Assembly: GCF_002369955.1 (NCBI RefSeq) | Contig: NZ_AP014564.1 | Span: forward strand, 432,893-496,892 | Source: Ichthyobacterium seriolicida | GTDB lineage: Bacteria; Bacteroidota; Bacteroidia; Flavobacteriales; Ichthyobacteriaceae | DNA length: 64,000 bases | Reading direction: 5' to 3' | Part shown: piece after piece, positions 10,512-61,666 of the stretch | Position numbering within the stretch: position 1 is the first letter of the stretch | Layout of the letters: the number at the start of each line of letters is the position of its first letter | Made by a program: the position numbers and the translations under genes | Notes under the pieces: model-generated | Seen by the model: only the letters and a program-made list of their open reading frames with translations | Told to the model about the DNA's origin: nothing | Databases searched by the model: none

Positions 10512-12123
10512 TTAACCTGGATTATTCACAGTCATATTAAAATAGATTAAACCTGATATTTTTTTCATTAACTTTTTTACTAATCAAACAAAACTCGTCT
10601 TCTTTGTAGTTTTTTTTGCACCATTTTTTAACACGACAATGATCTTTTTTAGTGTTTTTACGTGGTTTTTTAACGACAGAACGCAACTATCCCAAGGTTA
10701 TTCATTTCACAAATAAACAACCGCTACTGGGTAATAATTTCCCGAAATAAACCTTGTAAACAAAAGATTTAGATAACTGGTGATAGATTCGCCTTTTGGT
10801 AATTTTAATCGTTGCTCCTACCTTCAAAAGATAAGTTCTAATTGAACTGATTAACCATTTTTTTGCTACTTCAAATCTTGTTTTCTTTATCTTCTGTTTC
10901 AGTAATAAAAACATTTCATAGGCAAGACTACTCATCATAAGTCGAAAAAAATTAGCAAGAAAACTATGATTTGACAAACGATCAGAAAAACACATATTTT
11001 TAACTTCTTTTATTCTATTTTCACTTGAATCACCTCTTTTAACATAAAAGTCAAAGTAAATTTCTCTAGCATCCTTTTGGGGAAGATCACTAGAAAAATG
11101 CCTTATGTTCATACCTAATCCTGTACTCTCAACTTTAGAATAGCACTGTTGAGGCTTGTGCCAACTCTTGGCTTTGTAAATGAAATTCATAAAATGTTGG
11201 TGCTTTTCTCCATGATGTAGATACATTTTTTTTACAACATTTTTTGACCGAAATACCTTTCTTTTTAAAACTTCATTACTCACTATGCCTGTCATATATA
11301 GTAAATCAAAATCATCTACTAATTGGTAAAAAGGAGCGCAACTAAAGCCGCTATCACTTCTAATAATTATTTCCATCTCTGGGTATCTCTCACGTATTTT
11401 GATAATTATTCGCTTTAAAATACTCACATACCATTTATTAGAATGACTGTTTCCTCGACGGAATACAGGAAGAATAATCTGTCTTGGTGTCTCCATCATG
11501 AAAAAAATAGTTCATTGTACATGAATTTACCATAATAACCGTTAAACATTGACAATTGTTGACTGCCATGAGTTGGATCATCGGTTGAATCTACATCAAT
11601 AACTATTCTCTTGCGACCAGATAAATTTGAAACATATTTGTATAATCATGGATTACAAAACTTAAAAACAGCCTGTTTATCCAAGCTATTCTCAAATCTT
11701 GATATAGTGGGTTGAGAGGCCAAATCACCTTGAAGAACATCTTTTAATAAAGGATCTTTCTGTAAATGATTAACATCATTGGCGTCTTGATAGCCTAACA
11801 TTATCATATAAACCCTTTGTTTTAACTGTTGCTTTCTGGTATAAGTAACAAATCTAGAGTCTCGGGCATCAGGCAAAAGTTTACTGTAATAATCAATCAA
11901 CTTATGATCTCGTTCTAGTTTTTCAAGCATGATTAAGGATCCATCAGAGCTAATTTCTGATGATGAAAAAGTTAACTCAACAGATTTTCTCCCTCTATAA
12001 AATAATGTGTTTTTATTCCTCATTTTTGGGCTATATCTAAAGTGGTGATTTTTTGATTAAAACCTTTTAAAATTAACACTTTATACCCAATGTTGAAAGG
12101 TAACTATGAATAATCCAGGTTAA
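10512..12123 (-). mobile_element. IS1380-family element, left copy (inactive)
   Basis: A ~1.6-kb element bounded by the inverted termini TTAACCTGGATTATTCA (10512-10528) and TGAATAATCCAGGTTAA (12107-12123). The flanking TTAA on each side is either the target duplication or part of the repeat. It holds one broken transposase gene. The right copy at 26410-28014 is near-identical and in opposite orientation; the two face outwards around a 14-kb segment. Confidence 0.85.
10702..12023 (-). pseudogene. IS1380-family DDE transposase, broken (left copy)
   Basis: The N-terminal part is open from 12023 to 11646 (MRNKNTLFYRG...; SQPTISRFENS). A TGA then replaces the Trp codon present in the right copy. 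The second part contains the catalytic block IVIDVDSTDDPTHGSQQL and FFHDGDT, then changes frame by an extra base before IILPVFRRGNSHSNKW (open frame 11499-10702, which includes IIIRSDSGF). These motifs are characteristic of the IS1380 family (DDE group 1). The +1 frame change after FFHDGDT is also present in the right copy, so it predates their separation or is tolerated by frameshifting. At least one further lesion makes this copy non-functional. Confidence 0.85.
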
Positions 12124-12219
12124 ATCGTTTATTTTCGAGCAAATATATCTCGATCTGATTTTTTTTTACTCAAACCGCTATTATTTACTGCCGCGTTAGT
12201 ATAAATGTAAAAAAAAATC

Positions 12220-12227
12220 TAATTTTG
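12220..12227 (+). promoter_or_regulatory. Candidate -7 box for the collagen-like gene
   Basis: TAATTTTG matches the Bacteroidota -7 consensus TAnnTTTG exactly and lies 18 bp before the first ATG. The same box lies in the same place before the opposite gene (26308-26315). No strong -33 TTTG is visible, only a weak TTAG about 20 bp upstream. Confidence 0.45.
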
Positions 12228-12245
12228 TTGCTTTAGCTAATATAT

Positions 12246-15200
12246 ATGCCAATATTTTTAGATCATATGAAAAGAAGACTGGTGTTTTACTTTGGATTTA
12301 TACTTTTTTCATTTCTAAGTATAGATTCTATTTCTAAAAATTTTCCTGATAAGTTGAGTTATCAGTTAGTGATTAGGAAAGATGATAAATTGTTAAAAGA
12401 ATCTACAGTTAGTATTCGTATTTCTATATATTTTTTAAATGGAAAGATAGAAGATGTTGTATACTCTGAAGTTCATTGGAATGTTAAAACAGCTAAGAAT
12501 GGCTTAGCTACTCTAAATATAGGAGAAGGTATTAGATCTGAAGGATTTTCAGATTCAAAATTGTCTGATTTGTCATGGTCTGAGTATTCATATTATATTA
12601 AATCAGAGATAGATCTGACTGGTAAAAATGATTATAGCAATGCTCTTATAAAAAAGAGTCAAATGCTTAGTGTCCCTTATGCATTTTATTCTGCAAATAG
12701 CCCAAAAACAAATGTTATAGATAATTTGAGATCTAGAGTTGTATCAGCTGCTCTATCTGCTAGTCAAGGAAGGGTTTTAGAAGAGAAAAAATTAGACAAA
12801 ATAGATATTGCTGATAATTTAGATGGAGGGGTTGGTAAAGTTTTATCAGCGCATCAAGGATATCTGCTTAAGCAGATGATAGACATAAAGGCAGAAAGAG
12901 GTCCCCAAGGTGAAAGAGGTGAAACAGGTGAAAGAGGTGAAAGAGGAGCCCCAGGGGCAGAAGGAAAACAGGGCGAGCCTGGTAAAGATGGTAATCCAGG
13001 CCCTGCAGGAGAAAAGGGACCAGCAGGACCAAGAGGAGACACTGGTGCTCAAGGTAATACAGGTCCTCAAGGGCTAAAAGGTGAAGATGGAGCACCAGGT
13101 AGAGATGGAGTAGGAGGGGAAACCGGCCCGGCGGGCCCCCCAGGCGCTACAGGTCCAGCAGGTGCGACAGGTGCGGCAGGTCCTCGAGGGGAAAAAGGAG
13201 ACACAGGAAACACAGGGGCAGTAGGGCCAGCAGGTGCTGCTGGTAAAGATGGTGCAGCAGGTGCAGCAGGTCCTCAAGGTAACCAAGGCATTCCTGGTGC
13301 TAAAGGAGAGCAAGGTCCAATAGGACCAGCAGGAGCAAAGGGTGAAACAGGAGCGCAAGGAGATCAAGGGCCTCGAGGGGAAAAAGGAGACAGAGGTCCA
13401 GCAGGTGATAGAGGAGAACGAGGTGAAACAGGAGCAGTAGGGCTAAAAGGAAAAGATGGTCAAAAAGGTGACCAAGGAGAACAAGGGCTAAAGGGAGATA
13501 CTGGTCTAACAGGACCTCAAGGTCCAGCAGGCGCAAAAGGTGCTGATGGCGCTACAGGGAAAGCAGGACCAGAAGGACCTAGGGGTGAAAAAGGCGAAGC
13601 AGGAACAAACGGGATAGACGGAGCAACAGGTCCAGCGGGACCACAAGGTCCTCCAGGTAACCCAGGGGCAGAAGGAAAACAAGGCCCTCAAGGGCCAAAA
13701 GGTGATAAGGGGGATCCAGGACTTACAGGGCGTCAAGGTGACCAAGGAGCAACAGGCCCTCCAGGGCCAGCAGGGGCTCAAGGTAACCCAGGTAAAGATG
13801 GCAAGGATGGTGAACCAGGTCTACAAGGTCTAACAGGCCCTAAAGGAGAACAAGGCCCAGCAGGCCCTCCAGGTGCTGATGGCGCTCAAGGACCAATAGG
13901 TCCAACAGGTATCCAAGGCCCTCCAGGTGCAAAAGGTGATACAGGCCCACAAGGAGTCCCTGGGCAACAAGGTCCAGCAGGTGAAAAAGGTGCTGATGGC
14001 GCTCCAGGGAAAGAAGGTCCTATAGGACCAATAGGGCTTCAAGGTCAAAAAGGGCCAGCAGGAAAACAAGGTATTCAAGGTCCTGCAGGTGAAAAAGGAG
14101 AAAATGGTCAAATAGGCCCAGTAGGTCCAACAGGATCACAAGGCCCTCAAGGGGTAACAGGAGCCCCAGGGCCAGAAGGGAAAGTAGGACCACAAGGGCC
14201 AGTAGGTCCAGCGGGTTCCGAAGGTCCTGCTGGTAAAGATGGTGTAGATGGCAAGCCTGGTCTAGCAGGTGATAAGGGAGATCCAGGACCAGCAGGGCCA
14301 CAAGGTCCAGCAGGTGTGACAGGTGCGGCAGGTCCTAAAGGAGATCCAGGACCAGTAGGGCCACAAGGTGCGACAGGTGCGGCAGGTCCAGCAGGTCCAA
14401 AAGGCCCAGTAGGAGAAAGAGGGCTTCAAGGTGAAAGAGGAGCAGAAGGGCCCGTCGGGCCTCCAGGTAAAGATGGTGCTGCAGGAGCAGCAGGACCAAC
14501 AGGGCCAGTAGGTCCTAAAGGTACCCCAGGTAAAGATGGTGTAGATGGCAAGAATGGCGAACCAGGTTTACCAGGTCCACAAGGTCTAACAGGCCCTAGA
14601 GGAGAGCAAGGTGAGGCAGGTATACCTGGTATACCTGGTCAAATAGGCCCGGAAGGGCCAAAAGGAGAACAAGGACCTCCTGGCAAACCAGGTGACAAAG
14701 GTGAACCAGGTAACCCTGGCGAAACAGGGCCTCCAGGGCCTCCAGGGCCACAAGGAAAACAAGGTATTCCAGGGCCAGTCAAAATTATAGATAATTTAGA
14801 TTCTAATGAAAATGCAAGTGCCTTATCAGCTAATCAGGGGAAAATCCTAGATGAAAAAATAAAAAAAGCACATACGCTTATAAGACCGGAGGGAGAAACT
14901 AATATTATAACTAAATGGTCTGGTAAAGACGGTAATGGAACCAGTGGAGGCAGTGGTAGTAATAATGTTTTTTTAAGCATAGGATCTGGTAACACAATAA
15001 CTAGAGGAGCAAGCAACACAGCTGTTGGTTATGAATCCCTAAAAAATATCACCTCTGGAAGCTATAACACTTCTGTTGGCTCATTGTCTCTTAAAAGTAA
15101 TACTACTGGCAATAATAATACTTCAGTTGGCAATAGTTCTCTAAAAAATAATACTAGTGGCAAACAAAATGTTTCAGTTGGCGATAGTTCTCTCGAAAAA

Positions 15201-16568
15201 AATACTACTGGCTCCTATAATATTTCTGTTGGCAAGTATTCTCTCAGAGAGAATACCACTGGCACACAAAATGTTTCAGTTGGCGATAGTTCTCTCGGAA
15301 AAAATACTACTGGCACCCATAATGTTTCAGTTGGCGATAGTTCTCTCGAAAAAAATACTATTGGCTACAATAATGTTTCGGTTGGCGCATCGTCTCTTAA
15401 AAATAATGATGGTAATTTTAATGTTTCAGTTGGCACTGGTTCTCTCGAAAAAAATACTATTGGCTCCTATAATGTTTCGGTAGGGTCACATTCTTTAAAT
15501 AATATACTTAAAGGAAATAAAAATGTAGCTATAGGATCTTATGCTGGATTTAAAAATAGTTCAGATTCTATAGAATCAAATAATTCTATCTTCATAGGAT
15601 ATAGTGCTAAAGCGAAACAGAATCCCAGCATAAATGAGATAGTTATAGGGACTGAAGCGGAAGGAGAAGGAGACAATACTGTAACCATTGGTAATAATAA
15701 TACTACTAAAACTTATTTAAAAGGTCAAGTTTATCTAGATGGATTTCTTCAAGAGGCTCTAAAAGCTGTATATTTTTATAATATAGCTAGTTATTATTTG
15801 AACTATGATAATATCGATAAAAATTTAAACTATGATGTTTCTCTGTATGCAAAGAAATGTATTGCAACAGAGCAAAAGTTTTTAGCTGTATCGGATAAAC
15901 GTATCAAGAGTATAAAGGGTATCTCAGATAGAAGAGAAGATTTAAAGAAACTCTTGGATATAGAGATCACAGATTATACTATGATAGACAGTATAGAAAA
16001 TGGAGTTAGACCATTTAAAAAAGTAATAGCTCAGCAGGTAGAAAGTATAGTTCCAGAGGTCATAAATATAAATAGAGGTATTATCCCTAATGTATATGAA
16101 TTGGCTAAATCAATGAGCGTTTCTAATGAAGGAAGTACTATCACGACAAACAAGGTTCACAATTTTTCTGTTGGAAATCTTGTTAAGGTCATTATAGAAA
16201 ATGATGGAGAAAGATCTGTAAAAGTAAAGAGAGTTATAGATTCTAATACGTTTTTAACAGAAGAGGTTTTAGATTCTGAAAATAAGGTTTTTATTTATGG
16301 TAAAGAAGTAGACGACATGCGATCAGTAGATTACGATGGACTTACCACTTTAAATATTTCAGCTACTCAAGCTATTTATGAAGAGTTTCTTTCTACTAAG
16401 GAAAAACTTTCCGCTACTGAGGAAAAACTTTCCGCTACTGAGGAAAAACTTTCCGCTACTGAGGAAAAACTTTCTAATTCTCAAAAGAAGTTAGATATTC
16501 TAATAAAGGCACTAAGTAATACAAATATTCTCAGCGAAAAAGACATCAAAACTTTAACAAAAGAATAA
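12246..16568 (+). CDS. Collagen-like surface fibre with phage-tail-fibre modules
   Basis: Large exported fibre protein, 1440 residues. A second ATG at 12267 (MKRRLVF) gives the better signal peptide and may be the true start. Order of parts: signal peptide; N-terminal domain to ~215 containing an LSASQG tail-fibre-type linker; about 209 apparently uninterrupted Gly-X-Y triplets (219-845), rich in GPAG, GEKG and GDKG; linker with [14 protein letters not shown] (~855-870), a module found in phage tail fibres; ten 17-residue repeats of type NTSVGxxSLxxNTTGxx (~924-1092); a Peptidase_S74-like chaperone domain from SDKRIKS (~1217) through [13 protein letters not shown]; and a C-terminal coiled coil of 7-residue repeats. 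A trimeric, self-assembling surface fibre is likely. Adhesion or immune mimicry is inference. It converges on purB and is paralogous to 21884-26289. Confidence 0.88.
15016..15520 (+). repeat. Ten 17-residue (51-bp) beta-repeat units
   Basis: In-frame repeats within the collagen-like gene with consensus N-T/V-S-V-G-x-x-S-L-x-x-N-T-T-G-x-x. The type is common in Bacteroidota proteins carrying a C-terminal tail-fibre S74 domain and is likely to form a trimeric beta-helix. The paralogue at 21884-26289 carries about nine units with different variable residues. Confidence 0.8.
16397..16480 (+). repeat. 21-bp tandem repeats encoding coiled-coil heptads
   Basis: A 21-bp unit encoding EKLSATE occurs three times almost perfectly, plus a degenerate fourth. 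Its seven-residue period fits a coiled-coil stalk. Slippage would alter length in frame. The paralogue has a diverged version (22000-22160). Confidence 0.8.
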
Positions 16569-18163: not shown

Positions 18164-19140
18164 CATTTATTCCTTTAAATAGTACTTATAGGTTCTTTAT
18201 TTTACAATATCGTAGCTTACAAGGGTGATATCTCTTGAGGGGCAAGTCAACTTTCACTACTCATGGCTACAGCTGTAAGGGTAGCTATAGGATTCAGACA
18301 TGAGATAAGTTTGGATAAGATAATTTCAGATATAGAAAAAAGTATATCCTCTGTCTCTAGTACCATCATAATTTTATTTATCATAGATTCTCTTTCTGCA
18401 ACTTGGATGATAAGTGGAATAGTTCCTACTATGATTTATTACAGTCTAAGGATTATAAACACCCAATTGTTTCTAGTCACCTCTGTCATTATGTGTTCAT
18501 TGGTGTCGGTATTCGTAGGGAGTTGGAGCTCATGGACTACTATTTCCACTATTGGGTTGACTATGTTGGGAATAGGGAAAGTCTTAATTTTCCCAGAAGA
18601 AATGACCGCTGGAGCTGTAATATCTGGAGCTTATTTTGGCGATAAGACGCCTCCCAGAGACTATAAATTTAGCTTCTGTCGTAACTAAAACAGACCTATT
18701 TTCTCATATAAGATATATGATGTATACATCTGTTCCCTCTATTGCAATTACTATTGTATTATTTTTGGTAATCGGATATTGTTATGGCGATTATTACGTG
18801 CCTGCAAATACAGAAGACTTTATAGAGGCTTTAGATAGTGCATTTAATAATGAATTATTAAACGGATTACTTTCAACTAGCGGAATGAAAGGGGGTGTTA
18901 AATGCAGTATGGTTAATAATAATGGTTATATCATTTGGAGGAATGATGGAGAGCATAGGAGCATTGGATGCCATAACTAATGCTATTTTAAGAAGAATTA
19001 AAAATACTCCATCTCTTTTTGCTGCTACGACGGGGACCTGTCTGTTTTTAAATATCACAGCGTCAGATCAGTACTTATCTATATTGATATCTGGCAAGAT
19101 GTATAACAATTCCTTCAGGGAAAGAGGGTTATCCTCTCAA
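18164..19140 (+). pseudogene. nhaC: NhaC-type Na+/H+ antiporter remnant
   Basis: Read across frames this gives most of an NhaC antiporter: IVLIGSLFYNIVAYKGD, then GASQLSLLMATAVRVAIGFRHEI, SWSSWTTISTIGLTMLGIG, VISGAYFGDKTPP, TINLASVVTKTDLFSHIRYMMYTSVPS, and after another break SFGGMMESIGALDAI and LFLNITASDQYLSILISGKM. Lesions include a stop after GDIS, a frameshift near 18660, more near 18880-18900, and loss of both ends. The 3' end is cut at ERGLSSQ and joined to a panB fragment, so a deletion removed whatever lay between. It would once have exported Na+ in exchange for H+ across the inner membrane. Confidence 0.8.
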
Positions 19141-19796
19141 AAAATGTGATGGCTGGGCGAAACTACATTACCTATTACACTAGATCAGATGATATATCAC
19201 GCTTGCTCTGTGGTGAGAGCCTGTAAAAGAGCCTTAATGATGGGGATTTACCTTTGGGATCTTATCAAGGAAATCCCCAAGAAGCCCTTAGCTATAAGAA
19301 TTATGAAAGAGACAGGGCACATTCCATAAAATTAGTTAGAAGGAAGCAAAGACATTTTAGAATCTGTCAATAGAATAGTAAACGCAGGGATTCCTGTGAT
19401 GGGACACCTAGGTTTAACTCCCCAATCTATATATAAATTAGGAACATATAAAGGTGAGGGAAAAAGAATTAGAGGAAGCCAAACAGCTCATAGAAGATGC
19501 AAAAGAACTCTAGAAAGTTGGATGTTTTGCAATAGTTTTAGAAAAAATTCCATCGGAACTGGCAAAAAAGAGTAGCCGAGCAAATCAGTATTCCTGTAAT
19601 AGGCATAGGAACAGGCAAACACGTAGATGGCCAGGATTTTGGTAATCCACGATATGTTAGGAATAAACAATAAATTCAATCCAAGATTTTTAAAAAAAAT
19701 ACCTGTCTCTGTATGAAAGAGATGAGCAATACAATATCAACTTATGTAACAGAGGTAAAAGAAGATGTTTTTCCAAGTGAAGAAGAATCTTACTGA
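19141..19796 (+). pseudogene. panB: Ketopantoate hydroxymethyltransferase remnant
   Basis: The first step of pantothenate synthesis, now dead. Multi-frame translation gives ETTLPITLDQMIYHACSV, the near-signature [60 protein letters not shown] and HDMLGINNKFNPRFLKK, ending at a TGA at 19794-19796. These are unmistakable PanB blocks in the right order. The N-terminal quarter is missing and at least five frameshifts are spread through the rest. It abuts the nhaC remnant directly. If no other panB exists, the organism would need pantothenate or ketopantoate from its host. Confidence 0.85.
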
Positions 19797-20760: not shown

Positions 20761-21441
20761 AACCTGAATTTAATTAATAAACCAAATTAAGACAGGCATT
20801 ACCGACGATTGGGTATTTGACAGAGGGTTTTTTAGGCGAAAAGCTGTAAGAGCGATAAGTCCAGAAATAATATTGGTTAGAAAATTAGCAAAACTTCTAT
20901 GTCTAGAATGTTCTATCTGACAAATATTTTTAAGCTGATCATTGATGGTTTCTATGATTGATCTCTTTCTGAGTATTTAAATACCTTATTTCTACTTATT
21001 CTTTTATTGTTACAAACACGAATCGGAGTGGAATATACAAATGAAATTCTGGTACATTTTCCTAAACAGAATGTCTTTAACAACAAGGTAAGAGGTAATA
21101 AATTTTGTTGCATTAATCCCACAAATCTGTTGTATGATAAGGTTTTAGGGAATTCTTTAATCATGTGTTTTTGTGAAAAATTCAAATAAAAATGCTTGAA
21201 ATTTCTCAGCTGCTGTGTTGAAAATGGGCGTTTTGATTTATTCCCCAAAAGTGCTTTATCAATAACTTGAGAATATTTTTTACAGAATTCATCAACTAAA
21301 CAAAATATTTCTGTGATTTTCGAGCAAGTTATCATGCCTGTTTTTTTTAGAATTAAAACGTTGAATTTTAGAGCGTTAAATTAATCTAAAACCATTGTTT
21401 TTATTTAATTATCCTAAGTGATTATTATTCGAACTCAGGTT
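20761..21441 (-). mobile_element. IS982-family element with internal deletion
   Basis: Terminal repeats AACCTGAATT (20761) and AACTCAGGTT (21432-21441) bound a broken transposase. The N-terminal part, open from 21335, reads [19 protein letters not shown], then [18 protein letters not shown] and [18 protein letters not shown]. After a jump the C-terminal part follows ([33 protein letters not shown]). The middle of the catalytic domain, roughly 100 residues, is gone, giving 681 bp instead of about 1 kb. It directly abuts the stub of a third collagen-like gene. Confidence 0.78.
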
Positions 21442-21763
21442 AATAAGAGTTTTTTGACCATGATAAATCAGACAATTTTGAACCTGAAAATCCTTGAGAC
21501 CTAATACCTTCTCCTACCTTTAGAGTAGCTAAGCCATTCTTAGCTGTTTAACACTCAAATGAACTTCAGAGTATACAACATCTTCTATCTTTCTATTTAA
21601 AAAATATATAGAAATACAAATACTAATTGTAAATTCCTTTAATAATTTATCATCCTTCCTAATCACTAAATGATAACTCAACTTACCAGGAAAATTATTA
21701 GAAACAGAATCTATACTTAAAAATGAAAAAAAATATAAAGCCAAAATAAATCCTTCTACTCAT
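21442..21763 (-). pseudogene. 5' stub of a third collagen-like surface gene
   Basis: The minus strand encodes a degraded copy of the N-terminal domain shared by the two collagen-like proteins: [42 protein letters not shown], then in another frame sequence matching LATLxxGEGIRS and KLSDLSWS. Breaks occur in the signal peptide and after YSEVH. It stops at the right terminus of the IS982 remnant; no collagen part is found beyond, so the 3' part was deleted. It shares orientation with, and lies just downstream of, the second collagen-like gene. Confidence 0.75.
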
Positions 21764-22869
21764 AGTTTTATACTAATACAAATTGTTATAGATACATAGC
21801 TAGTAGAGATAACACTTTTTCTTTTTAATGTGCTAACGTAGTAGTTCTATACATCGAGCCTAGGATCTTAGTTTATCTTGAACTTACTTTGTCAAAACTT
21901 TTATATCTTCCTTATTAAGGACATCTGATTTACTTAATACCTTAACTAAAATATCTAATTTATTTTCAGTATTAGAATAGCTTCTCTTTAGTAAGAGAAA
22001 ATTCTTTTTCATCAGTATAAGCTTTTCTTTAGTAACAGAAAGTTCTTTTTCATTAGTAGAAAGCTTTTGCTCAGCAACAGAAAGTTTTCTTTCATTAGTA
22101 GAAAGCTTCTGCTCAGTAGCAGAAAGTTTTTTCTTAGTAGAAACAAGCTCTTCATAAATAGCTTGGGTAGCTGAAATGTTTAATGTAGTAAGACCATCGT
22201 AATCTACTGATCGTAAATCGTCTACCTCCTTACCATATACAAATATTTTATTTGGAGACACCTCATCTCCTAATTCTACCACAAAAGTATTAGCATTTCT
22301 TATCTCTTTAACTTTAACAAAACTCTCTCGGTCATCATCCAAAACTAATTTTACCATGTCTCCCTTAGAAAAACCATGTGTTTTTTTTGTAGTAATTGAT
22401 GTAGTATTATTTGTATTATCTATTGATTTAGATGATTCGTAGACGTTAGGAATTACACCATTACTCTTTTGTACAAGATCTGGAATAATAGTTTCTATTT
22501 GTTGAGCTATTATTTTTTTAAAAAATCTGCCACTATTTTTAATGCTATCTCTCATAGTATAATCTGTGATCTTTATATCTAAAAGTTTCTTTAAATCTTC
22601 TTTTTTATCTGATATGCTTATTATGTTCTTGAGACGTTTGTCAGAAGTGATTTGCGTACCTTTTGCATAAAAATATCCTTCTGTACGAACATCGCCTTCT
22701 AAATAAATATTAGTAGTGCTTGTATTTCCAATAGTTACAGTATTATTTCCACGCCCTACCGCGTTAGTCCCTATAACTATCTCGTTAATACTATTATCTA
22801 GTAACGCTTTGGTATTATACCCTATGAAAATAGAATTGTTTGATTTATTGAGAGTCCTTGTTGAACCAG

Positions 22870-23380
22870 TATTATTAAATTCGCTGCCAGCATTACTTCC
22901 TATAGCTATATTTTTATTACCTGTATTATTATTGCTTAGAGAATTTGAGCCAACAGAAGTATTATCAACGCCAGTATTATTCCATTTGAGAGAATTAGTG
23001 CCAACAGAAGTATTATTCTTTCCAGTAGAATTTGTTGTGAGAGAATACGTGCCAACTGAGGTATTATTAACGCCAGAAGTATTAAAAAATAGAGAATTAT
23101 AGCCAACTGAAATATTATTTTCTCCAGTAGTATTCCATTTGAGAGAATTAGTACCAACAGAAGTATTATTCTTTCCGGTAGAATTTGTTGTGAGAGAATT
23201 ATAGCCAACTGAAATATTATTTTCTCCAGTAGTATTCCATTTGAGAGAATTAGTACCAACAGAAGTATTATTAGTGCCAGTAGTATTACTTTCAAGAGAC
23301 AATGAGCCAACAGAAGTGTTATAGCTTCCAGAGGTGATATTTTTTAGGGATTCATAACCAACAGCTGTGTTGCTTACTCC
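22870..23380 (-). repeat. Nine 17-residue beta-repeat units
   Basis: Same unit type as 15016-15520 but with alternating variants (NTSVGTNSLKWNTTGEN and NISVGYNSLTTNSTGKN), suggesting expansion of a two-unit block. Limits approximate. Confidence 0.75.
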
Positions 23381-24116
23381 TCTAGTTATTGCGTGACCAG
23401 ATCCTATACCTAAAAAAACATTATAATCTCCATTGCCTGCAGTGGTTCCATTACTGCCTCCACCAGACCACTTAGTTATAATATTACTGTGAGTCTCTGT
23501 TTTTATAAGCGTATGTGCTTCTTTTATTTTTTGATCCAAAATCTTACCTTGATTAGCTGATAAGGCACTTGCCTTGTCAGCAGAAGTTAACTCATCTATA
23601 ATTTTCACTGGCCCTGGAGGACCTGGAGCGCCATTTTTACCAGCAGGACCTTGCTTTCCCTTTTCACCTTTAGGCCCTGCTACACCTGCTGGCCCTGTTA
23701 AGCCTCGTTTACCCTGTGGTCCTGCTGGCCCCCTTTCACCTTTTTTCCCATTTACACCATCTTTACCTGCAGGCCCGACGGGTCCTTCTGCTCCTCTTTC
23801 ACCTTGGTCTCCTTTAGCTCCAGGGGGTCCTGTTGGTCCTTGAAGACCTTGGATGCCGTCTTTCCCGTTAATGCCAGCTTTACCAGTAGGACCTGCTGGT
23901 CCTGGATCTCCCTTATCACCTGCTAGACCTGGCTTGCCATCTACACCATCTTTACCTGGGGTACCTTGAGGACCTACTGGCCCTGGGGCTCCTGTGTCAC
24001 CTTTTTTCCCTTGCTCTCCTTTAGCTCCAGGCGTTCCTGCTGGTCCTTCTGGGCCTCTTGCTCCATCTTTACCTGCTGCTCCATCTGCTCCATCTCTACC
24101 AGCAGGACCTTCTGGT

Positions 24117-24910
24117 CCCATTGGGCCAACATCACCCTGAATACCTTGAGGACCTGCTGGTCCTGCTGGTCCTATTGGACCTTGCTCTCCTCTGTCTCCT
24201 TTTGGTCCTGGGTCACCTTGTTTGCCATCTGGCCCTGCTTCACCTTTTTCTCCTGCTGGACCTGTTTCACCCCGAAGCCCTGTTGGCCCTGGAGGGCCTT
24301 GTTTCCTTCTTTACCCGCTGCTCCATCTGCTCCATCTCTACCAGCAGGTCCTTGGACTCCTGGTTTGCCATCTTCGCCTCTGACACCTTGAGCACCAGTG
24401 TCTCCTCTTGGACCTGTTTCGCCTCGCTCGCCTCTTTCTCCTGTTGGACCCGCTGGTCCTTGTTCTCCTCTTTCTCCTTTTTCCCCTTGCTCTCCTTTAA
24501 CTCCAGGCGTTCCTGCTGGCCCTTGATTTCCTGTTGCTCCTTGAATACCTTGCTCACCTCTGTCACCTGCTATACCTTGTGGTCCTGTTTCTCCTGCTGG
24601 ACCTGCTGGTCCCATTGGGCCAACATCACCCTGAATACCTTGAGGACCTGCTGTTCCTGCTGGTCCTATTGGACCTTGCTCTCCTCTGTCTCCTTTTGGT
24701 CCTGGGTCACCTTGTTTGCCATCTGGCCCTGCTTCACCTTTTTCTCCTGCTGGACCTGTTTCACCCCGAAGCCCTGTTGGCCCTGGAGGGCCTTGTTTTC
24801 CTTCTTTACCCGCTGCTCCATCTGCTCCATCTCTACCAGCAGGGCCTTGGACTCCTGGTTTGCCATCTTCGCCTCTGACACCTTGAGCACCAGTGTCTCC
24901 TCTTGGACCT
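24117..24910 (-). repeat. ~300-bp direct repeat, 494-495 bp offset, in the collagen region
   Basis: 24117-24415 and 24611-24910 are almost identical, including the codons for [22 protein letters not shown] and [12 protein letters not shown]. The offset is 494 before and 495 after the missing T. 495 bp is 55 collagen triplets, so the duplication keeps the frame. The one-base lesion lies in the promoter-distal unit. Confidence 0.75.
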
Positions 24911-26307
24911 GCTGGACCTGTTTCACCTTGAAGCCCTCTTTCTCCTGTTGGACCCGCTGGTCCTTGTTCTCCTCTGTCTCCTTTTTCCCCTTGCTCTCCT
25001 TTAGCTCCAGGTGTTCCTGCTGGTCCTTCTGGGCCTTGATTGCCATCTGCTCCATCTTTACCTGCAGGTCCTTCTGGGCCTCTTGCTCCAGCTGGACCGA
25101 CTGCCCCTGTAGCGCCTGGGGGTCCTACCGGGCCGGTTTCCCCTGCTACTCCATCTCTACCTGGTGCTCCATCTTCACCTTTTAGCCCTTGAGGACCTGT
25201 ATTACCTTGAGTACCAGTGTCTCCTCTTGGTCCTGTTGCCCCTGTGTCTCCTTTGTCTCCTTTAGGACCTGCTTCACCTGCTGGACCTGGATCACCTTGT
25301 TTTCCTGCTAGACCCGTTAATCCTATAGGACCTCTTTCTGCCTTTGCGTCTATCAATTTCTTGAGTTTATACCCTTGATGCGCTGATAAAACTTTTTTAG
25401 CATCATGACTCGAAGTACTCAGGTCATCTATGACTTCTAATTTTGATTTTTTTAATTCTTCAATTTCAAAAATAGCTTTATCTTGTTCCCTTTTCTGACT
25501 TTCTAGAACTTTACCCTGCTCAGCCATTTTGCTTTCTAGCTCTTTCTTCTGTTGGGCTATATTCCCCTTTTGACTAATTAAATCTTCCTTTTGTTGAGAT
25601 ATTTGTTCATCATGAATAGTTAACCTTTCAGAAAAATCTTTCTCATATTTATTTACCCTTTCATAAAGTTCTTTCCCCTTATTAGCTGATAAAACTTTAC
25701 CAATCCCTCCATGAAAATTATCAGCAATATTTATTTTGTCTAATTTTTTCTCTTCTAAAACCCTCCCTTGACTAGCAGATAGAGCAGCTGATACAACTCT
25801 AGATCTCAAATTATCTATAACATTTGTTTTTGGGCTATTTGCAGAATAAAATGCATAAGGGACACTAAGTATTTGACTCTTTTTTATAAGAGCATTGCTA
25901 TAATCATTTTTACCAGTCAGATCTATCTCTGATTTAATGTAATATGAATACTCAGACCATGATAAATCAGACAATTTTGAGCCTGAGAATCCTTGAGATC
26001 TAATACCTTCTCCTATCTTTAGAGTAGCTAAGCCATTCTTATCTGTTTTAACATTCCAATGAACTTCAGAGTATACAACATCTTCTATCTTTCCATTTAA
26101 AGAATATATAGAAATACGAATACTAACTGTAAATTCTTTTAATAATTTATCATCTTTCCTAATCACTAACTGATAACTCAACCTATCAGGAAAATTATTA
26201 GAAACAGAATCTATACTCAAAAATGAGAAAAATATAAACCCAAAGTAAAACACCAGCTTCTTTGTCATCTGATCTAAAAATATTATCATATAACTAACTT
26301 ACGGTAA

Positions 26308-26315
26308 CAAAATTA
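26308..26315 (-). promoter_or_regulatory. Candidate -7 box for the second collagen-like gene
   Basis: The minus strand reads TAATTTTG, the mirror of the box at 12220-12227 and an exact TAnnTTTG match, 18 bp before the ATG at 26289. Confidence 0.45.
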
Positions 26316-26409
26316 CTAAAACTTTACACTTATACTAACATGGTAGTAAATAATAGCGGTTTGAGTAAAAAAAATCAGATCGAGATATATTTGCTCGAAA
26401 ATAAACGAT

Positions 26410-28014
26410 TTAACCTGGATTATTCATAGATATATTGTTAATATTAGGCATAAAGTGTTAATTTTAAAAGGTTTTAATAAAAAATTCACCACTTTAGATA
26501 TAGCCCAAAAATGAGGAATAAAAACACATTATTTTATAGAGGGGAAACTTCTGTTGAGTTAACTTTTTCATCATCAGAAATTAGTTCTGATGGATCTTTA
26601 ATCATACTTGAAAAACTAGAACCAGATCATAGATTGATTCATTATTACAGTAAGTTTTTGCTTGATACTCGAGACTCTAGATTTATTACTTATAGCAGAG
26701 GGCATCAGTTAAAGCAAAGGGTTTATATGATCATGTTAGGCTATTAAGACGCCAATGATGTGAATCATTTACAGAATGATCCTTTATTCAAAGATGTTCT
26801 TCAAGGTAATTTGGCCTCTCAACCCACTATATCAAGATTTGAGAATAGCTTGGATAAACAGGCTGTCTTTAAGTTTTGTTATGCGTGGTTATACAAATAT
26901 GTTTTAAGTTTATCTGGCCGCAAGAGAATAGTTATTGACGTAGATTCAACCGATGATCCAACTCATGGCAGTCAACAATTGTCAATGTTTAACGGTTATT
27001 ATGGTAAATTCATGTACAATGAACTATTTTTTCATGATGGAGACACCAAGACAGATTATTCTTCCTGTATTCCGTCGAGGAAACAGTCATTCTAATAAAT
27101 GGTATGTGAGTATTTTAAAGCGAATAATTATGAAAATACGTGAGAGATACCCAGAGATGGAAATAATTATTAGAAGTGATAGCGGCTTTGGTTGCGCTGC
27201 TTTTTACCAATTAGTAGATGATTTTGATTTACTATATGTGACAGGCATAGCGAGCAATGAAGTTTTAAAAAGAAAGGTATCTCGGTCAAAAAATGCTGTA
27301 AAAAAAAATGTATTTAGATCAGGGAGAGAAGCACCAACATTTTATCAGTTTCAGGTACAAAGCTAAGAGTTAGCATAAGCCTCAACAGTGCTATTCTAAA
27401 GTTGAGAGTACTGGATTAGGTATGAACATAAGGCATTTTTCTATTAATATTCCTCAAAAGAATGCTGGAGAAATTTACTTTGACTTTTATGTTAAAAGAG
27501 GTGATTCAAGTGAAAATAGAATTAAAAAAGTTAAAAATATGTGTTTTTCTGATCGTTTGTCAAATCATAGTTTTTTTTTTGCTAATTTTTTTCGACTTAT
27601 AATAAATAGTCTTGCCTATGAAATGTTTTTATTACTGAAACAGAAGATAAAGAAAACAAGATTTGAAGTAGCAAAAAAATGGTTAATCAGTTCGATTAGA
27701 ACCTATCTTCTCAAGGTAGGAGCAACGATAAAAATTACCAAAAGACGAATCTATTACCAGCTATCTAAATCTTTTGTTTACAAGGGTTTATTTCGGGAAA
27801 TTATTACTCAGTAACGGTTGCTTATTTGTGAAATGAACAACCTTGGGATAGTTACGTTCTGTCGTTAAAAAAACACTAAAAAAGATCATTGTCGTGCTAA
27901 AAAATGGTGCAAAAAAACGACAAAGAAGAAGGATTCTTTTCTATTGACAAAAAAGTTAATTAAAAAATATCACGTCTAATCTATTTTAATATGACTGTGA
28001 ATAATCCAGGTTAA
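26410..28014 (+). mobile_element. IS1380-family element, right copy (inactive)
   Basis: Bounded by TTAACCTGGATTATTCA (26410-26426) and TGAATAATCCAGGTTAA (27998-28014), 1605 bp, opposite in orientation to the left copy. TTAA flanks both ends. Confidence 0.85.
26511..27814 (+). pseudogene. IS1380-family DDE transposase, broken (right copy)
   Basis: Same protein as the left copy, with partly different damage: CAA to TAA after MIMLGY (~26745); the shared +1 frame change after FFHDGDT (~27043), where RQIILPVF continues in another frame; and a further frame break near 27310-27365 before MNIRHFS. The catalytic block IVIDVDSTDDPTHGSQQL is intact here, and the Trp codon that became a stop in the left copy is still TGG. 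Neither copy can encode a full transposase without frameshifting. Confidence 0.85.
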
Positions 28015-47986: not shown

Positions 47987-50900
47987 CTAATTACTCGTTT
48001 GAACCTTAACCCAATAATGCCCTGCTACATTACTTCCACTACTTTCTTTAAGAGTATATTTTACTTCTTTCCCATCAGAAAAATCTTCTCCATTGTTAGG
48101 ATCTAGAGTATAAGAAGAACTACTACTACTATCCAAACTAAGTGTTAAATTACTAAGATCAGTACCTGTAGGCACAGTAATACTTATAACTCTGGTAGTT
48201 GCATTAATATCAACAGCGCTTGGAGTAATCTCGGTACTACTGCTATTTGTAAGTTTTAAACTATCACTACTAGCTATAGTTTTAGTAGAATCATATATAT
48301 AAACTTCATAAGTCTTTGTTGTAGTGCCATTTTCAGCTCTTATTGTATACTCCTTTGGAGCATCATAAGTAAATGATTGAGCTCCAGTTGGAGAAGTTAC
48401 AGTAGCATAATCTGATTTTTCTATAGTAGGAGTCTTACTACCTGTAGCAGCAGGCACAACTATTCTGCCTTTACTGCCACTACCAGTAACGGTCTCTGTA
48501 ATATTACCTTCATCAGTATTAATTGTAAATTTTGTAATCTGCGCTTCAGTTGAAGGTGTTCTAGTTACAGTAATTTTATACTCTTTATTAAGATCTGCAT
48601 AAGTAGAATTTTTTACTGTATAAGTAAATTCGCTACCCAAAGTAAATTGCTGAGCACTCACACTAGGAGTGATAGTAGTATTGGTGGCATCTCCAAAATC
48701 AATTGTAGGAGTTAGAGTTACTGTATTAGTGCCATCTGATGAGGTCTTCTCCACCGTAGCAGGAACTGTTATAGCTATAGCTCCAGTATCGTGGTTAATA
48801 CTTGTTGCGCTTATTTCAGTAGTTATACCTGTATTGCCACTAGTAGCAAATTTAAAAGAACTAATATAAGGTCCTTTAACTACCGTTACGGTATAAACTC
48901 TTTTAGAACCTGTATCAGTTTTTGTTAAAGTAAATGTATTATTGTCAGTAGTACTAATATCTCCAGATACTGCTGCACCACTAGGTGGATCTAAACTACA
49001 ACCATCAGGAAAAGTTATAGTAGGAGTTAATCCTGTTAAATTAAATTCATTTTCATTATTCTTAGGAAATTTTAACAAGATAGTACCAGTGTTATCAGAA
49101 TCAGCATGAGTTAATGTAGCTTGAACTTCTTCTTTAATGCCTTTTCCAGTAGTAGCTGGTATTTTAAAGCTTCCTAATTTTGGCGCCAATTCTTTAGTTA
49201 CAGTTACTTGATAGGTCTTTTCTACACCATTAGCTGTTACTTTATATTGTACAGGAGTTTTTTCATTAAAAGTCTCAGGAGTTCCAGTAGCAGGGACAAC
49301 AGTAACACCATTTTCAACTTCAATTGTAGGAGTTAGAGTTTGACTTAAGTCTACAGTGCTAGGAACGGTTATGGCTATAGCTCCAGTATCGTGTTTGATA
49401 CTTGTAGCGCTTATATCAGTAGTTATACCTGTATTAGTTCCACTACTAGATGTTTTAAATTTAAAAGACTTAATAGAAGGGCCTTTAACTACCGTTACGG
49501 TATAAACTCTTTTAGAACCTAAAGTAGTTGTTAGAGTAAATGTATTACTGCCAGTAGTACTAATATCTCCAGTTACTGCTGCACCACTAGCTGGATTTAC
49601 AGTATACCCACTACTTCCATCAGGAAAAGTTATAATGGGTGTCAATCCTGTTAAAGAGATATCAGTATCCATATCCTTAGGAAATTTCAGCAATATAGTA
49701 CCAGTATTAGAGTCTTCAGCATGAGTTAATTCAGCCACAACATTATTTTGAATACCATTTGTTTGATTAGCTGATATTGTAAAGTTTTTCAACTGTGGCG
49801 CTGCTTCTTTAGTTACAGTTACTTCATAAGTTTTTTCTATACCATTAGCTGAAACTTTATATTGAACAGGGGTATTTTCATTAAAGGTCTGAGTAATTCC
49901 AGTAGAAGGGACAATAGTAACATCACTTTCAACTTCAATTGTAGGAGTTAGAGTTTGACTTAAGTCTACAGTATTAGGAACTATTACTGTTATATTATTA
50001 TTAGCGTGATTAATAACTCCATTTACAGTGGTACTTATACCGGTATTAGCACTCACTACACTAGCAGCTTCAAACTTAAACGACTTAATAAACGGCCCTT
50101 TAACTGCTGTTATAGTATAAACTCTTTTAGAACCTGTATCAGTTTTTGTTAGAGTAAATGTAGCGCTGCTAATCTCTCCAGTTACTCCTGCACCACTAGC
50201 TGGACTTACAGTACAACCAGTAGAAACTTCTATAGTAGGGGTTAATCCTGTTAAATTAAATTCATTTTCATTATTCTTAGGAAATTTTAACAAGATAGTA
50301 CCAGTGTTATCAGAATCAACATGAGTTAATTCAGCCACAACGTTATTTTGAATACCATTTGTTGGATTAGCTGTTATAGTAAAACCTGTCAATTTTGGCG
50401 CCAATTCTTTAGTTACTGTAACCGCATAAGTTTTTTTTATCCCATTGGCTGTTACTATGTAATTAACAGGGCTGCTACTAGTAAACTGCTGAGATTGCGC
50501 ACTAGCAGGCTCAACTGTAGTAGTACTGTCTCCTAACGTAATTGTAGGTGTTAGACTATTATTTAAGTTTACAGTGCTAGGAACGGTTACTGTTATATTA
50601 TTATTAGCGTGATTAATAACTCCATTTACAGTGGTACTTATACCCGTATTAGTACTCCCGCCACTAGTAGTTTCAAATTTAAAAGAGCTAATAAACGGCC
50701 CTTTAACTGCCTCAACAGTATAAACTCTTTGTGACCCTGTATCAGTTTTTGTTAAAGTAAATGTATTACTACCAGTAGTACTAATATCTCCAGATACTAC
50801 CGTGCCACTAGCTGGGCTTACAATACAACCAGTAGGAACTTCTATAGTAGGAATTAATCCTGACAAACTAATTACAGTAGAAGCACTCTTAGGAAACTTT

Positions 50901-51778
50901 AATATTATTTTACCAGTGTTAGTGTTGTCAGAAAGATACTCGAATGTAGCTTCAACTTCTTCCGTAATACCTTTTCCTGTATCAGCTGGTATTTTAAAGC
51001 TTTCTAATTTTGGTCCTTCTTCCTTAGTTACAGTTACTTTATAAGTTTTTGTTGTACCATCTTGAGCTGTTACAGTATATTCCTCTTCTGAACCAGATGT
51101 AAAAGTTTTAGCTTCTTCATTTGCTGGACTAACTCTAGCTCCAGAACTTATCTCTATAGTAGGCTTAAGATCTGCTAAATCAGCAATATTTGGAACTATT
51201 AATGATATGGTAGCTTCTCCACTTTCTGACTTTATTATAATTCCAGTTATGTCTTTTACAAGACCCTTACCATTATTTTTTTCATCATTAATAAATTTAA
51301 ATGAACTAATAGCGCATTCATTAGATGAACCTTTGGTTATATATACTTTGTATTCCTTAGCTGTTCCATCTTTAGCTGTTACAGTAAAAACTTTTTTATA
51401 ACGTTGAAGAGAAGGTGTTTCTGAAGACTCCTCAGAAGACTCCTCAGAAGATTCTTCAAGTTCAAAATTAACTTCATCTCCACTAGCAGGTGATATGCTA
51501 TATCCTTCAGAAAGTTTTATATCAAACTTTAATCCAGTTAAAATAGCCGAATGAGGAACTGTTAACGATACAGTATAATCAGCAGTATCTATATCACAAG
51601 TTATATCAGAAACTAATCCTTTTTCAGGGTTTTCAGATTCAATTAGGGAAATAGACTCTATGCCTACTCCTATACCTAAATTATTATCATAACCTTTATT
51701 CTTTTCACAAGAAAAAATAAACACAGATAACAACACAAAAGAAAAAATTATACTCTTCACAAAAGAAAATGTCTTCAT
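47987..51778 (-). CDS. Giant repeat lipoprotein, type I with four double modules (array gene 1)
   Basis: 1263-residue surface lipoprotein: lipobox ending at Cys24 (FIFSCEKN), an N-terminal beta-sandwich (about 38-150) with an acidic Ser/Glu linker (ESSEESSEE), then a second sandwich (about 155-252). Four copies of an A+B pair follow (residues 255-459, 460-659, 660-864, 865-1073) and a C-terminal pair (about 1074-1263). A modules read APKLxxFxIxA...GLTPTIEVP, CxVSPASG, SKRVYTV. B modules start YISSFKF and end KTYxVTVTKE. The pattern fits DUF5018-like Ig folds of Bacteroidota, whose function is unknown; binding or antigenic variation is inference. Repeats between modules are strong at DNA level. 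Confidence 0.82.
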   Translation of the reverse strand: MKTFSFVKSIIFSFVLLSVFIFSCEKNKGYDNNLGIGVGIESISLIESENPEKGLVSDITCDIDTADYTVSLTVPHSAILTGLKFDIKLSEGYSISPASGDEVNFELEESSEESSEESSETPSLQRYKKVFTVTAKDGTAKEYKVYITKGSSNECAISSFKFINDEKNNGKGLVKDITGIIIKSESGEATISLIVPNIADLADLKPTIEISSGARVSPANEEAKTFTSGSEEEYTVTAQDGTTKTYKVTVTKEEGPKLESFKIPADTGKGITEEVEATFEYLSDNTNTGKIILKFPKSASTVISLSGLIPTIEVPTGCIVSPASGTVVSGDISTTGSNTFTLTKTDTGSQRVYTVEAVKGPFISSFKFETTSGGSTNTGISTTVNGVINHANNNITVTVPSTVNLNNSLTPTITLGDSTTTVEPASAQSQQFTSSSPVNYIVTANGIKKTYAVTVTKELAPKLTGFTITANPTNGIQNNVVAELTHVDSDNTGTILLKFPKNNENEFNLTGLTPTIEVSTGCTVSPASGAGVTGEISSATFTLTKTDTGSKRVYTITAVKGPFIKSFKFEAASVVSANTGISTTVNGVINHANNNITVIVPNTVDLSQTLTPTIEVESDVTIVPSTGITQTFNENTPVQYKVSANGIEKTYEVTVTKEAAPQLKNFTISANQTNGIQNNVVAELTHAEDSNTGTILLKFPKDMDTDISLTGLTPIITFPDGSSGYTVNPASGAAVTGDISTTGSNTFTLTTTLGSKRVYTVTVVKGPSIKSFKFKTSSSGTNTGITTDISATSIKHDTGAIAITVPSTVDLSQTLTPTIEVENGVTVVPATGTPETFNEKTPVQYKVTANGVEKTYQVTVTKELAPKLGSFKIPATTGKGIKEEVQATLTHADSDNTGTILLKFPKNNENEFNLTGLTPTITFPDGCSLDPPSGAAVSGDISTTDNNTFTLTKTDTGSKRVYTVTVVKGPYISSFKFATSGNTGITTEISATSINHDTGAIAITVPATVEKTSSDGTNTVTLTPTIDFGDATNTTITPSVSAQQFTLGSEFTYTVKNSTYADLNKEYKITVTRTPSTEAQITKFTINTDEGNITETVTGSGSKGRIVVPAATGSKTPTIEKSDYATVTSPTGAQSFTYDAPKEYTIRAENGTTTKTYEVYIYDSTKTIASSDSLKLTNSSSTEITPSAVDINATTRVISITVPTGTDLSNLTLSLDSSSSSSYTLDPNNGEDFSDGKEVKYTLKESSGSNVAGHYWVKVQTSN

Positions 51779-51930
51779 GTTTTTTTAAAAAAAATAATTA
51801 ATTACAACCTGTCAATCACCTTGAATATCAAAGCATTAACCACAAATTTTAGCATAATTCTTTCCCCTAAAGACAAAGAATTAAATATCCTAGCTAATAT
51901 AGTAGCAATTATTTGAATCTCCGCTTTTTT
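51779..51930 (-). repeat. Conserved leader upstream of array gene 1
   Basis: About 150 bp nearly identical before all four leaders visible here. On the minus strand it has TTTG, 22 bp, then TAAAATTTG, a near-miss to the TTTG/TAnnTTTG promoter pattern, so it probably holds the promoter. Confidence 0.6.
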
Positions 51931-51940
51931 ATATGAACAA

Positions 51941-51973
51941 AAACAGACAGCCATAATAACTGACTGCCTGTTT
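51941..51973 (-). terminator. Terminator of array gene 2
   Basis: Stem AAACAGACAG/CTGCCTGTTT. It lies between array gene 2 and the leader of gene 1, so each gene is probably its own transcript. Confidence 0.75.
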
Positions 51974-52007
51974 TTTTTAGAGTTGAATAAGTATGGAAAT
52001 TATTTAT

Positions 52008-54914: not shown

Positions 54915-55030
54915 GTTTTTTTAAAATAATTAATTACAACCTGTCAATCACTTTGAACATCAAAGCATTAACCACAAATTTTACCCTAATTCTTTACCAT
55001 AAAGAATTAAATGCCTTAGCTAAGATAGTA
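54915..55030 (-). repeat. Conserved leader upstream of array gene 2
   Basis: Slightly shortened form of the array leader, including the TAAAATTTG box; small indels relative to genes 1 and 3. Confidence 0.55.
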
Positions 55031-55061
55031 GTAAATATTATGTCGGTCAATAAAAAAATAA

Positions 55062-55095
55062 AAATAGACAGCCATAATAACCTGACTGCCTGTTT
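55062..55095 (-). terminator. Terminator of array gene 3
   Basis: AAATAGACAG/CTGCCTGTTT hairpin, one base different on the left arm from the others; T-rich tail on the minus strand. Confidence 0.7.
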
Positions 55096-55137
55096 TTTTT
55101 AGAGTTGAATAAGTACAGAAATTATTTATTTCTAAGC

Positions 55138-58100: not shown

Positions 58101-58317
58101 TTAATGATACAGTATAATCAGCAGTATCTATATCACATGTTATATCAGAAACTAATCCTTTTTCAGGGTTTTCAGATTCAATTAGGGAAATAGATTCTAT
58201 GCCTACTCCTATACCTAAATTATTATCATAACCTTTATTCTTTTCACAAGAAAAAATAAACACAGATAACAACACAAAAGAGAAAATTATACTCTTCACA
58301 AAAGAAAATGTCTTCAT
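55138..58317 (-). CDS. Giant repeat lipoprotein, type I with three double modules (array gene 3)
   Basis: 1059 residues. The first ~250 residues are almost the same as gene 1, with one fewer four-residue SEES step in the acidic linker. It then has three A+B pairs (A starts GPKLESFKIPADNN, APQLKSFTISAN, APVLSSFLINAN) and the common C-terminal pair. It is 204 residues shorter than gene 1, which is one A+B pair. Some modules match gene 1 or gene 5 better than their own neighbours, as expected from recombination. Cys24 lipobox intact. Function unknown. Confidence 0.82.
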   Translation of the reverse strand: MKTFSFVKSIIFSFVLLSVFIFSCEKNKGYDNNLGIGVGIESISLIESENPEKGLVSDITCDIDTADYTVSLTVPHSAILTGLKFDIKLSEGYSISPASGDEVNFELEESSEESSETPSLQRYKKVFTLTAKDGTAKEYKVYITKGSSNECAISSFKFINDEKNNGKGLVKDITGIIIKSESGEATISLIVPNIADLADLKPTIEISSGATVSPANEEAKTFTSGSEEEYTVTAQDGRTKTYKVTVTKEEGPKLESFKIPADNNKGIRDEVTATFEHEQGSATGKILLNIPYTGTAIDLEGLTPTIEVPAGCSVDLLSGQAVTGDISSARFTLTKTDTGSKRVYTVEAVKGPYISSFKFETTSGGSTNTGISTTVNGVISHANNTIAITIPSTAAKGSSDNTVTLTPTIEFGDTTNTTITPSVTAQQFILGSEFNYKVTSNGIEKTYKVTVTKEAAPQLKSFTISANPTNGIQNNVEAVITDDSNAATGKILLKIPYTGTDINLTGLTPTITFPDGSSGYTVSPVSGTAVSVDISTTGSNTFTVTTTLGSKRVYTVTAVKGPYISKFEFKANANNANGITTDISATSIDHNTGAIAITVPSAVDLSQTLTPTITLGDDTTSTVEPAASAKVFNQSVQYTVKNSTHTDFSKVYIVTVTKEAAPVLSSFLINANSGKGIKTDVAAVITNDSNAATGKILLKIPYTGTDINLTGLTPTIEPNTGGYTVNPASGAAVTGDISTAGSNTVTLTKTDTGSKRVYTVEAVKGPSIKSFKFGNSGNTGITTEISATSINHDTGAITITVPGSVKKGSGGSSNTVTLTPTIDFGDANNTTITPSVTAQQFTLDSEFKYIVKNSTHIDLNKEYKITVTRTPSTEAQITKFEIESGAQDNIIHPSNSNGDKGRIVVPVSSLPTSSTSYTIEKSDYATVTPNEVETFSSYSESKQYTVTAENTSTQKTYEVYIYDSNNVIVPDSLKVANGSTEITPSSKVITENSRVIIITVPSGTSLTDLTLSLDSSSSSSYTLEPTNGQDFSDGKEVKYTLKENNDVKGYYWVKIAVAE

Positions 58318-58445
58318 GTTTTTTTAAAAAAAATAATTAATTACAACCTGTCAATCACCTTGAATATCAAAGCATTAACCACAAATTTTAGCCTAATTCT
58401 TTCCCCTAAAAGACAAAGAATTAAATATCCTAGCTAATATAGTAG
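58318..58445 (-). repeat. Conserved leader upstream of array gene 3
   Basis: Nearly identical to the leader of gene 1 for over 100 bp, differing mainly by an extra A. Confidence 0.6.
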
Positions 58446-58475
58446 TGATCATTGTGTTGGTCAATAAAAAAATAA

Positions 58476-58509
58476 AAACAGACAGCCATAATAACCTGAC
58501 TGACTGTTT
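58476..58509 (-). terminator. Terminator of array gene 4
   Basis: AAACAGACAG/CTGACTGTTT hairpin with a weaker pairing in the middle than its sisters; T-rich tail on the minus strand. Confidence 0.65.
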
Positions 58510-58540
58510 AGGTTGAATAAGTATAATTGGAATTTATTTA

Positions 58541-61426: not shown

Positions 61427-61555
61427 GTTTTTTTAAAAAAATAATTAATTACAACCTGTCAATCACTTTGAATATCAAAGCATTAACCACAAATTTTAAC
61501 CTAATTCTTTCCCCTAAAGACAAAGAATTAAATATCTTAGCTAAGATAGTAGTAA
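61427..61555 (-). repeat. Conserved leader upstream of array gene 4
   Basis: Same leader family; ends about 50 bp before the terminator of gene 5. Confidence 0.55.
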
Positions 61556-61604
61556 AATTCTAAATTAGAATTATTTTTAAGTAATAATAAATACAGAAAA
61601 AACA

Positions 61605-61637
61605 AAACAGACAGCCATAATAATTGACTGTCTGTTT
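61605..61637 (-). terminator. Terminator of array gene 5
   Basis: AAACAGACAG/CTGTCTGTTT, a perfect 10-bp stem, T-rich tail on the minus strand (TTTTGTTTTTTC). Confidence 0.75.
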
Positions 61638-61666
61638 TTTTAGAGTTGAATAAGTACGGAAATTAT

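Follow-up and report, generated by a model that had tools for sequence, protein, structure and literature searches.

Gene A of Ichthyobacterium seriolicida, a probable collagen-shafted member of a large family of MAT-like surface fibres

What is the function of a chromosomal gene that joins a long collagen to modules of phage tail fibres? This question is raised by gene A, an open reading frame on the forward strand (12246-16568, 1440 amino acids) of the Ichthyobacterium seriolicida JBKA-6 chromosome, of which a stretch of 64,000 nucleotides, referred to as the window, was analysed. Strain JBKA-6T is a gliding fish pathogen of the Bacteroidota and represents the sole recognised species of its family (PMC5331501). 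We judge it probable (roughly 0.7) that gene A, with its collagen shaft, belongs to a large and recombining family of trimeric surface fibres whose tips bind fish surfaces and/or vary antigens. These fibres resemble the mosaic adhesive trimers (MATs) of Bdellovibrio bacteriovorus HD100, a 21-member family with S74 domains in 13 members (Caulton et al. 2024, PMC10769870). The model is based on the observed architecture, copy number, 31 intact dyads, a conserved-variable-conserved pattern and mosaic paralogs. The parts of gene A are as follows.

12246-16568, forward: collagen-shafted S74 fibre gene A (open reading frame, Pfam, repeat count)
12267-12335, forward: putative Sec signal peptide (sequence, paralog alignment)
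12336-12689, forward: MAT-like N-domain (LSYQ...SVPYA), Ig-like beta sandwich, presumed cell anchor
12747-12899, forward: LSASQG / LSAHQG linkers of the Phage_fiber_rpt PF22337 type (Pfam, sequence)
12900-14780, forward: collagen shaft, unbroken, amino acids 219-845
14781-14885, forward: ALSANQG linker, best PF22337 stretch at amino acids 847-876 (Pfam)
14943-15560, forward: 17-residue beta-repeats, xTSVGxxSLxxNTTGxxN (motif spacing; phage tail-spike relatives)
15726-15839, forward: hypervariable tip between TYLKG and SLYA, presumed receptor-binding surface (paralog alignment)
15891-16235, forward: S74 chaperone/protease core with Ser1216 and Lys1221, motif SDKRIK, predicted cleavage before Ser1216
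16335-16520, forward: C-terminal coiled coil (sequence, AF2)

The original prediction had described about 209 uninterrupted Gly-X-Y triplets between LSASQG and ALSANQG linkers, followed by beta-repeats of 17 residues, an S74 domain and a coiled coil, all behind a signal peptide. As an observation on gene A this collagen and S74 fibre was confirmed, and the interpretation given to it was right in outline if incomplete. The collagen run consists of exactly 209 triplets, including one GVG; when these residues were shuffled 2000 times, the longest run was 8. Pfam analysis returned Collagen (4.4e-95), Phage_fiber_rpt in two stretches (1.4e-23) and Peptidase_S74 at amino acids 1216-1272. For the latter (PF13884), scores of 24.0 (C-terminal fragment) and 26.5 bits passed the gathering cut-off of 22, the whole protein scoring 21.2. 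The xSVG motif of the beta-repeats recurs every 17 residues, with a few spacings of 16 or longer, and AF2 predicted a helix of 62 residues for the C-terminal coiled coil. The signal peptide is putative and was assigned by eye; the second ATG (Met8) is probably the start codon, since most paralogs begin there.

Gene A belongs to a family that occupies a considerable part of the genome. On the single contig of 1,921,407 bp we counted 31 S74 domains (29 via Pfam search and 2 more via motif) and 32 N-domains plus decayed remnants, the S74 open reading frames totalling 112.9 kb or 5.9% of the chromosome. Most members are clustered (0.90, 1.05-1.07, 1.36-1.40, 1.45, 1.61 and 1.64-1.66 Mb), and two subfamilies can be distinguished, a collagen type that includes gene A and a mostly non-collagen type. 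Some 30 relatives outside the window had been overlooked at first, as had two features within the window itself, paralog B (26289-21884, reverse) and the remnant of a third N-domain. Together with the arms of an inverted repeat discussed below, the latter features are listed here.

24172-26289, reverse: 5' part of paralog B with signal peptide, N-domain, coiled segment and collagen, ending at a frameshift within the collagen
21884-24121, reverse: 3' part of paralog B with collagen, beta-repeats, S74 of the other subfamily (chimera) and coiled coil
21440-21750, reverse: decayed remnant of a third N-domain
10512-12850, no strand assigned: left arm of a 2.35-kb inverted repeat, with DDE_Tnp_1_4 transposase remnant, promoter, signal peptide and N-domain of gene A
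25685-28014, no strand assigned: right arm of the inverted repeat, with N-domain of paralog B, promoter and transposase remnant

The genome of JBKA-6T was partly assembled from 454 data (PMC5331501), so the frameshift in paralog B may be a sequencing error. Several members beyond paralog B are split or truncated, which could mean decay instead of use, or again 454 sequencing error. At 53 kb of the genome, an N-domain is followed by a very long collagen in a frame that stops soon after the post-collagen linker, without S74 (L070:1026-4037); this is either a truncated copy or one with a different ending. Adjoining the decayed third N-domain of the window, a DDE_Tnp_1_3 transposase fragment was found at 20952-21335. 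A membrane transporter gene at 18263-19149, NhaC-like by eye, is broken into several overlapping frames and represents a pseudogene or a sequencing error; the piece of it that was tested gave no Pfam match. Further, a tandem array of four to five large repeat proteins at 47987-63505 forms a second expanded surface family of the window. Most of them start with MK(T/I)FSF(V/M)KSIIFSFVLLSVFIFSCEKNK and are lipoprotein-like, with a weak DUF5018-related match.

Across 392 sampled Bacteroidota genomes, the N-domain was detected in 106 and S74 in 113. Counts in this survey were capped per genome; uncapped counts were made for ten high-count genomes of the sample and reached maxima of 17 S74 and 10 N-domains, in genomes of 3.5-7.2 Mb. 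With such maxima elsewhere, the copy number in I. seriolicida is exceptional within the sample, and species beyond it may equal this number. PorP/SprF, considered as a conserved partner, gave no match near the genes of the relatives.

The original prediction had also asked whether the C-terminus is cut off, and had named the Ser/Lys pair that catalyses S74 self-cleavage as the feature to look for. This pair is present in gene A (Ser1216/Lys1221, the lysine at +5), and the surrounding motif SD[KR]R.K was found in 31/31 paralogs with its Ser, Asp, Arg and Lys invariant throughout. Equivalent dyads with the same spacing are S911/K916 in endoNF and S587/K592 in MyRF (PMC8326128), and the S74 motif of MATs is SDxxxK (PMC10769870). 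Given an intact pair that is invariant in all 31 paralogs, cleavage is the default expectation. Sequence conservation around the serine points in the same direction. For 12 collagen-type paralogs, mean identity fell from 82% in the N-domain to 23% over the 70 residues that precede the serine and rose again to 79% over the 110 that follow, the aligned tips being bounded by conserved TYLKGxV and SLYA..SI.T motifs. A conserved-variable-conserved pattern that breaks at the serine is as expected if cleavage exposes the tip, and on this basis the answer to the question of C-terminal cleavage is very probably yes. Judging from this alignment, the 70 residues before the cleavage serine would mark a receptor-binding tip. 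Structural modeling of the C-terminal 363 amino acids as a single chain yielded a mean pLDDT of 65 and a pTM of 0.32, with the S74 core poorly modelled. A PDB fold search with this model had a best E-value of 0.018, its short matches being mostly small beta-barrel domains. When the S74 profile was searched against PDB sequences, it returned 6F45 only (E 0.001), the distal subunit of a phage long tail fibre.

The paralogs are mosaics at the DNA level. Gene A and the copy at 391-396 kb share 586 identical bp covering signal peptide, N-domain and linkers, their tips being 56% identical as DNA, and two otherwise different family genes have in common an identical tract of 324 bp over tip and S74. 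In paralog B and the gene at 1656-1660 kb, a collagen-type N-domain is joined to the S74 of the other subfamily. Further, the two arms of the inverted repeat (10512-12850 vs 28014-25685) are 92.6% identical and point inward, with a segment of about 13 kb between them. Their arrangement predicts that an inversion between the arms would swap everything after the N-domain between gene A and paralog B.

Such shuffling could be taken as the main purpose of the family, which would then be an antigenic-variation reservoir serving immune evasion, with adhesion secondary and with gene conversion, frameshift switching and inversion between the two arms of the window as possible routes. The identical tracts between dispersed paralogs, the inverted repeat over promoter and N-domain of A and B, the split copies and the variable tips are all consistent with this. 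Antibody-mediated killing of I. seriolicida in amberjack has also been reported, according to the title of a reference in PMC9804302. We nevertheless regard immune evasion as the main role to be unlikely, since its basis is a single genome of the species and since ligand diversity could by itself account for variable tips, as has been argued for MATs. Comparison of upstream sequences for a common switch revealed no shared invertible promoter, and no obvious hypermutable tract was found either.

The neighbours of gene A are housekeeping or surface genes, plus transposase remnants, and a plasmid match was sought for the adjacent DNA and not found. The remnants beside A and B, as well as the split and decayed copies, would fit a second alternative in which the fibres are ordinary matrix or gliding-associated scaffolds, expanded via IS-driven duplication under relaxed selection and forming no recognition repertoire. 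Neutral decay would, however, not be expected to leave a dyad invariant in 31/31 copies and an S74 core 79% identical next to a divergent tip, which makes this explanation rather improbable.

The relation of gene A to phages differs between its parts. The PHROG tail-fibre families phrog_819 and phrog_5073 align across the collagen into the beta-repeats, tail-fibre matches reach S74, and tblastn with the C-terminal part finds tail spikes and fibres of phages at about 28-44% identity. As these families span both modules and the C-terminal part matches tail spikes, collagen joined to such beta-repeats also exists in phages. The idea of a fibre built from tail-fibre parts thus holds for collagen, beta-repeats and S74 (Pfam, PHROG, tblastn) and fails for the N-terminal anchor, which is cellular and has no phage match. 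Consistent with the original prediction, no phage structural genes were found in the window, and searches of the whole genome for phage sheath and Baseplate_J families were negative.

The N-domain of gene A is beta-rich and comprises about 120 amino acids. The Bdello_MAT_N model (NF053851) was matched by 29/29 paralogs (best 7e-11) and by 26/26 members of a Bacteroidota-wide N-domain alignment (best 2.3e-15). Gene A itself scored 30.4 bits and did not reach the curated cut-off of 60, so the protein is described here as a MAT-like homologue and not as a MAT. Pfam gave no match for the N-domain of gene A and weak, scattered ones for its relatives. Neither 50,697 phage records, where no match was obtained, nor a scan of viral contigs yielded a confirmed relative. 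The AF2 model (pLDDT 75, core about 90) is Ig-like, and its fold search against PDB and viral structures returned nothing below 1e-3, in agreement with the lack of a PDB homologue described for the MAT N-domain (PMC10769870). Judged by these profile matches, the N-domain is of cellular type, widespread in Bacteroidota and a homologue of the one in Bdellovibrio MATs. That gene A could be the tail fibre of a prophage, tailocin or extracellular contractile injection system is rejected as highly improbable in spite of the PHROG and tail-spike matches and of the diverse receptor-binding domains of injection-system tail-fibre genes described in PMC12923769, because a putative signal peptide and an N-domain with no confirmed relative in phage records or viral contigs are found among housekeeping neighbours in a genome without contractile-tail families.

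Automatic annotation leads to yet another name. Gene A reaches 415 bits with the SclB model NF038329 (cut-off 325), which would make it an LPXTG-anchored collagen adhesin. We rejected this identity since the score of this Gram-negative protein comes from the collagen alone; no LPXTG is present in its sequence. This collagen artefact is a source of wrong automatic names. The Lcl model stayed below its cut-off (319 vs 500). Regarding export, Pfam detected no T9SS sorting domain (Por_Secre_tail) on the gene A protein, and one other carrier in the genome. Bdellovibrio is not known to possess T9SS. As its MATs reach the surface without this system, an export route separate from T9SS is, by analogy, likely for gene A.

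For the MAT-like fibre of gene A, we infer export, a trimeric state, actual cleavage, anchoring at the cell and a ligand in the following manner. The chain would pass Sec and then trimerise from its C-terminus via coiled coil and S74; because Sec needs an unfolded chain across the inner membrane, trimerisation and cleavage would take place in the periplasm or outside. S74 would cut before Ser1216 and leave together with the coiled coil, uncovering the variable tip. The latter would be carried on the beta-repeat stalk and collagen shaft, which the conserved N-domain would anchor to the cell. Around 31 such tips may bind surface molecules of the fish host and/or vary the antigenic surface. Extended to the whole genome, the proposal becomes tentative, and we place it slightly under even odds: about 6% of a 1.9-Mb genome would encode shuffled, self-capping, collagen-shafted MAT-like fibres that shed a phage-derived protease cap and reveal interchangeable tips for surface recognition and/or antigenic variation. 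It would be the same system that serves prey recognition in Bdellovibrio and is kept at low copy across Bacteroidota.

This would give a poorly understood aquaculture pathogen a candidate main surface recognition system whose cleavage site and tip region are predicted exactly and, if the repertoire is antigenic, would have a bearing on the success or failure of vaccines. With 31 intact dyads and tips hypervariable up to the serine, what S74 release achieves on cellular fibres becomes directly testable. Three fields studied apart, bacterial collagens, self-cleaving S74 chaperones of phages and the MAT fibres of a predator, are joined here.

Among known systems, SclA/SclB of Streptococcus and Lcl of Legionella are surface adhesins that likewise have a long bacterial collagen as their shaft. 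The likeness is limited to collagen, as these proteins lack S74 and gene A lacks LPXTG. The S74 domains of phage K1F endosialidase, the T5 L-shaped fibre and MyRF share with gene A the Ser-Lys dyad at +5, a C-terminal coiled coil and an upstream beta stalk. Unlike them, gene A is cellular, lies behind a signal peptide and has a beta-rich insertion that separates the core from the coiled coil, and Arg897 of endoNF has no evident equivalent in it. Closer relatives are Bacteroidota proteins named collagen-like or 'tail fiber domain-containing', which have the same N-domain and collagen with 19 (L055), 16 (L069) and 92 (L039) triplets. L055 and L069 also carry beta-repeats and the S74 motif, so the combination of N-domain, collagen and S74 is not unique; L039 consists of N-domain and collagen. 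Compared with I. seriolicida, these relatives mostly occur in 1-3 copies per genome, and collagen is shorter among those sampled. Bdellovibrio MATs are displayed on the surface, the S74 of one member self-cleaves at its serine, and another, non-S74 member binds glycans (prey) through its tip (PMC10769870). The words collagen and Bacteroid* do not appear in the main text of that paper. Gene A differs from MATs in its collagen shaft and LSAxQG linkers, and its host differs from Bdellovibrio as a non-predatory Bacteroidota fish pathogen with 31 copies in 1.92 Mb. Both have a signal peptide, a beta-rich N-domain of about 130 amino acids, a long fibre with a variable tip, an SDxxxK S74 end (present in 31/31 paralogs) and a large family, in I. 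seriolicida a multi-copy one with conserved base (82%) and diversified tip (23%). Gene A is thus a collagen-shafted variant of known MAT/S74 fibres, notable for its expansion and tip pattern in a pathogen.
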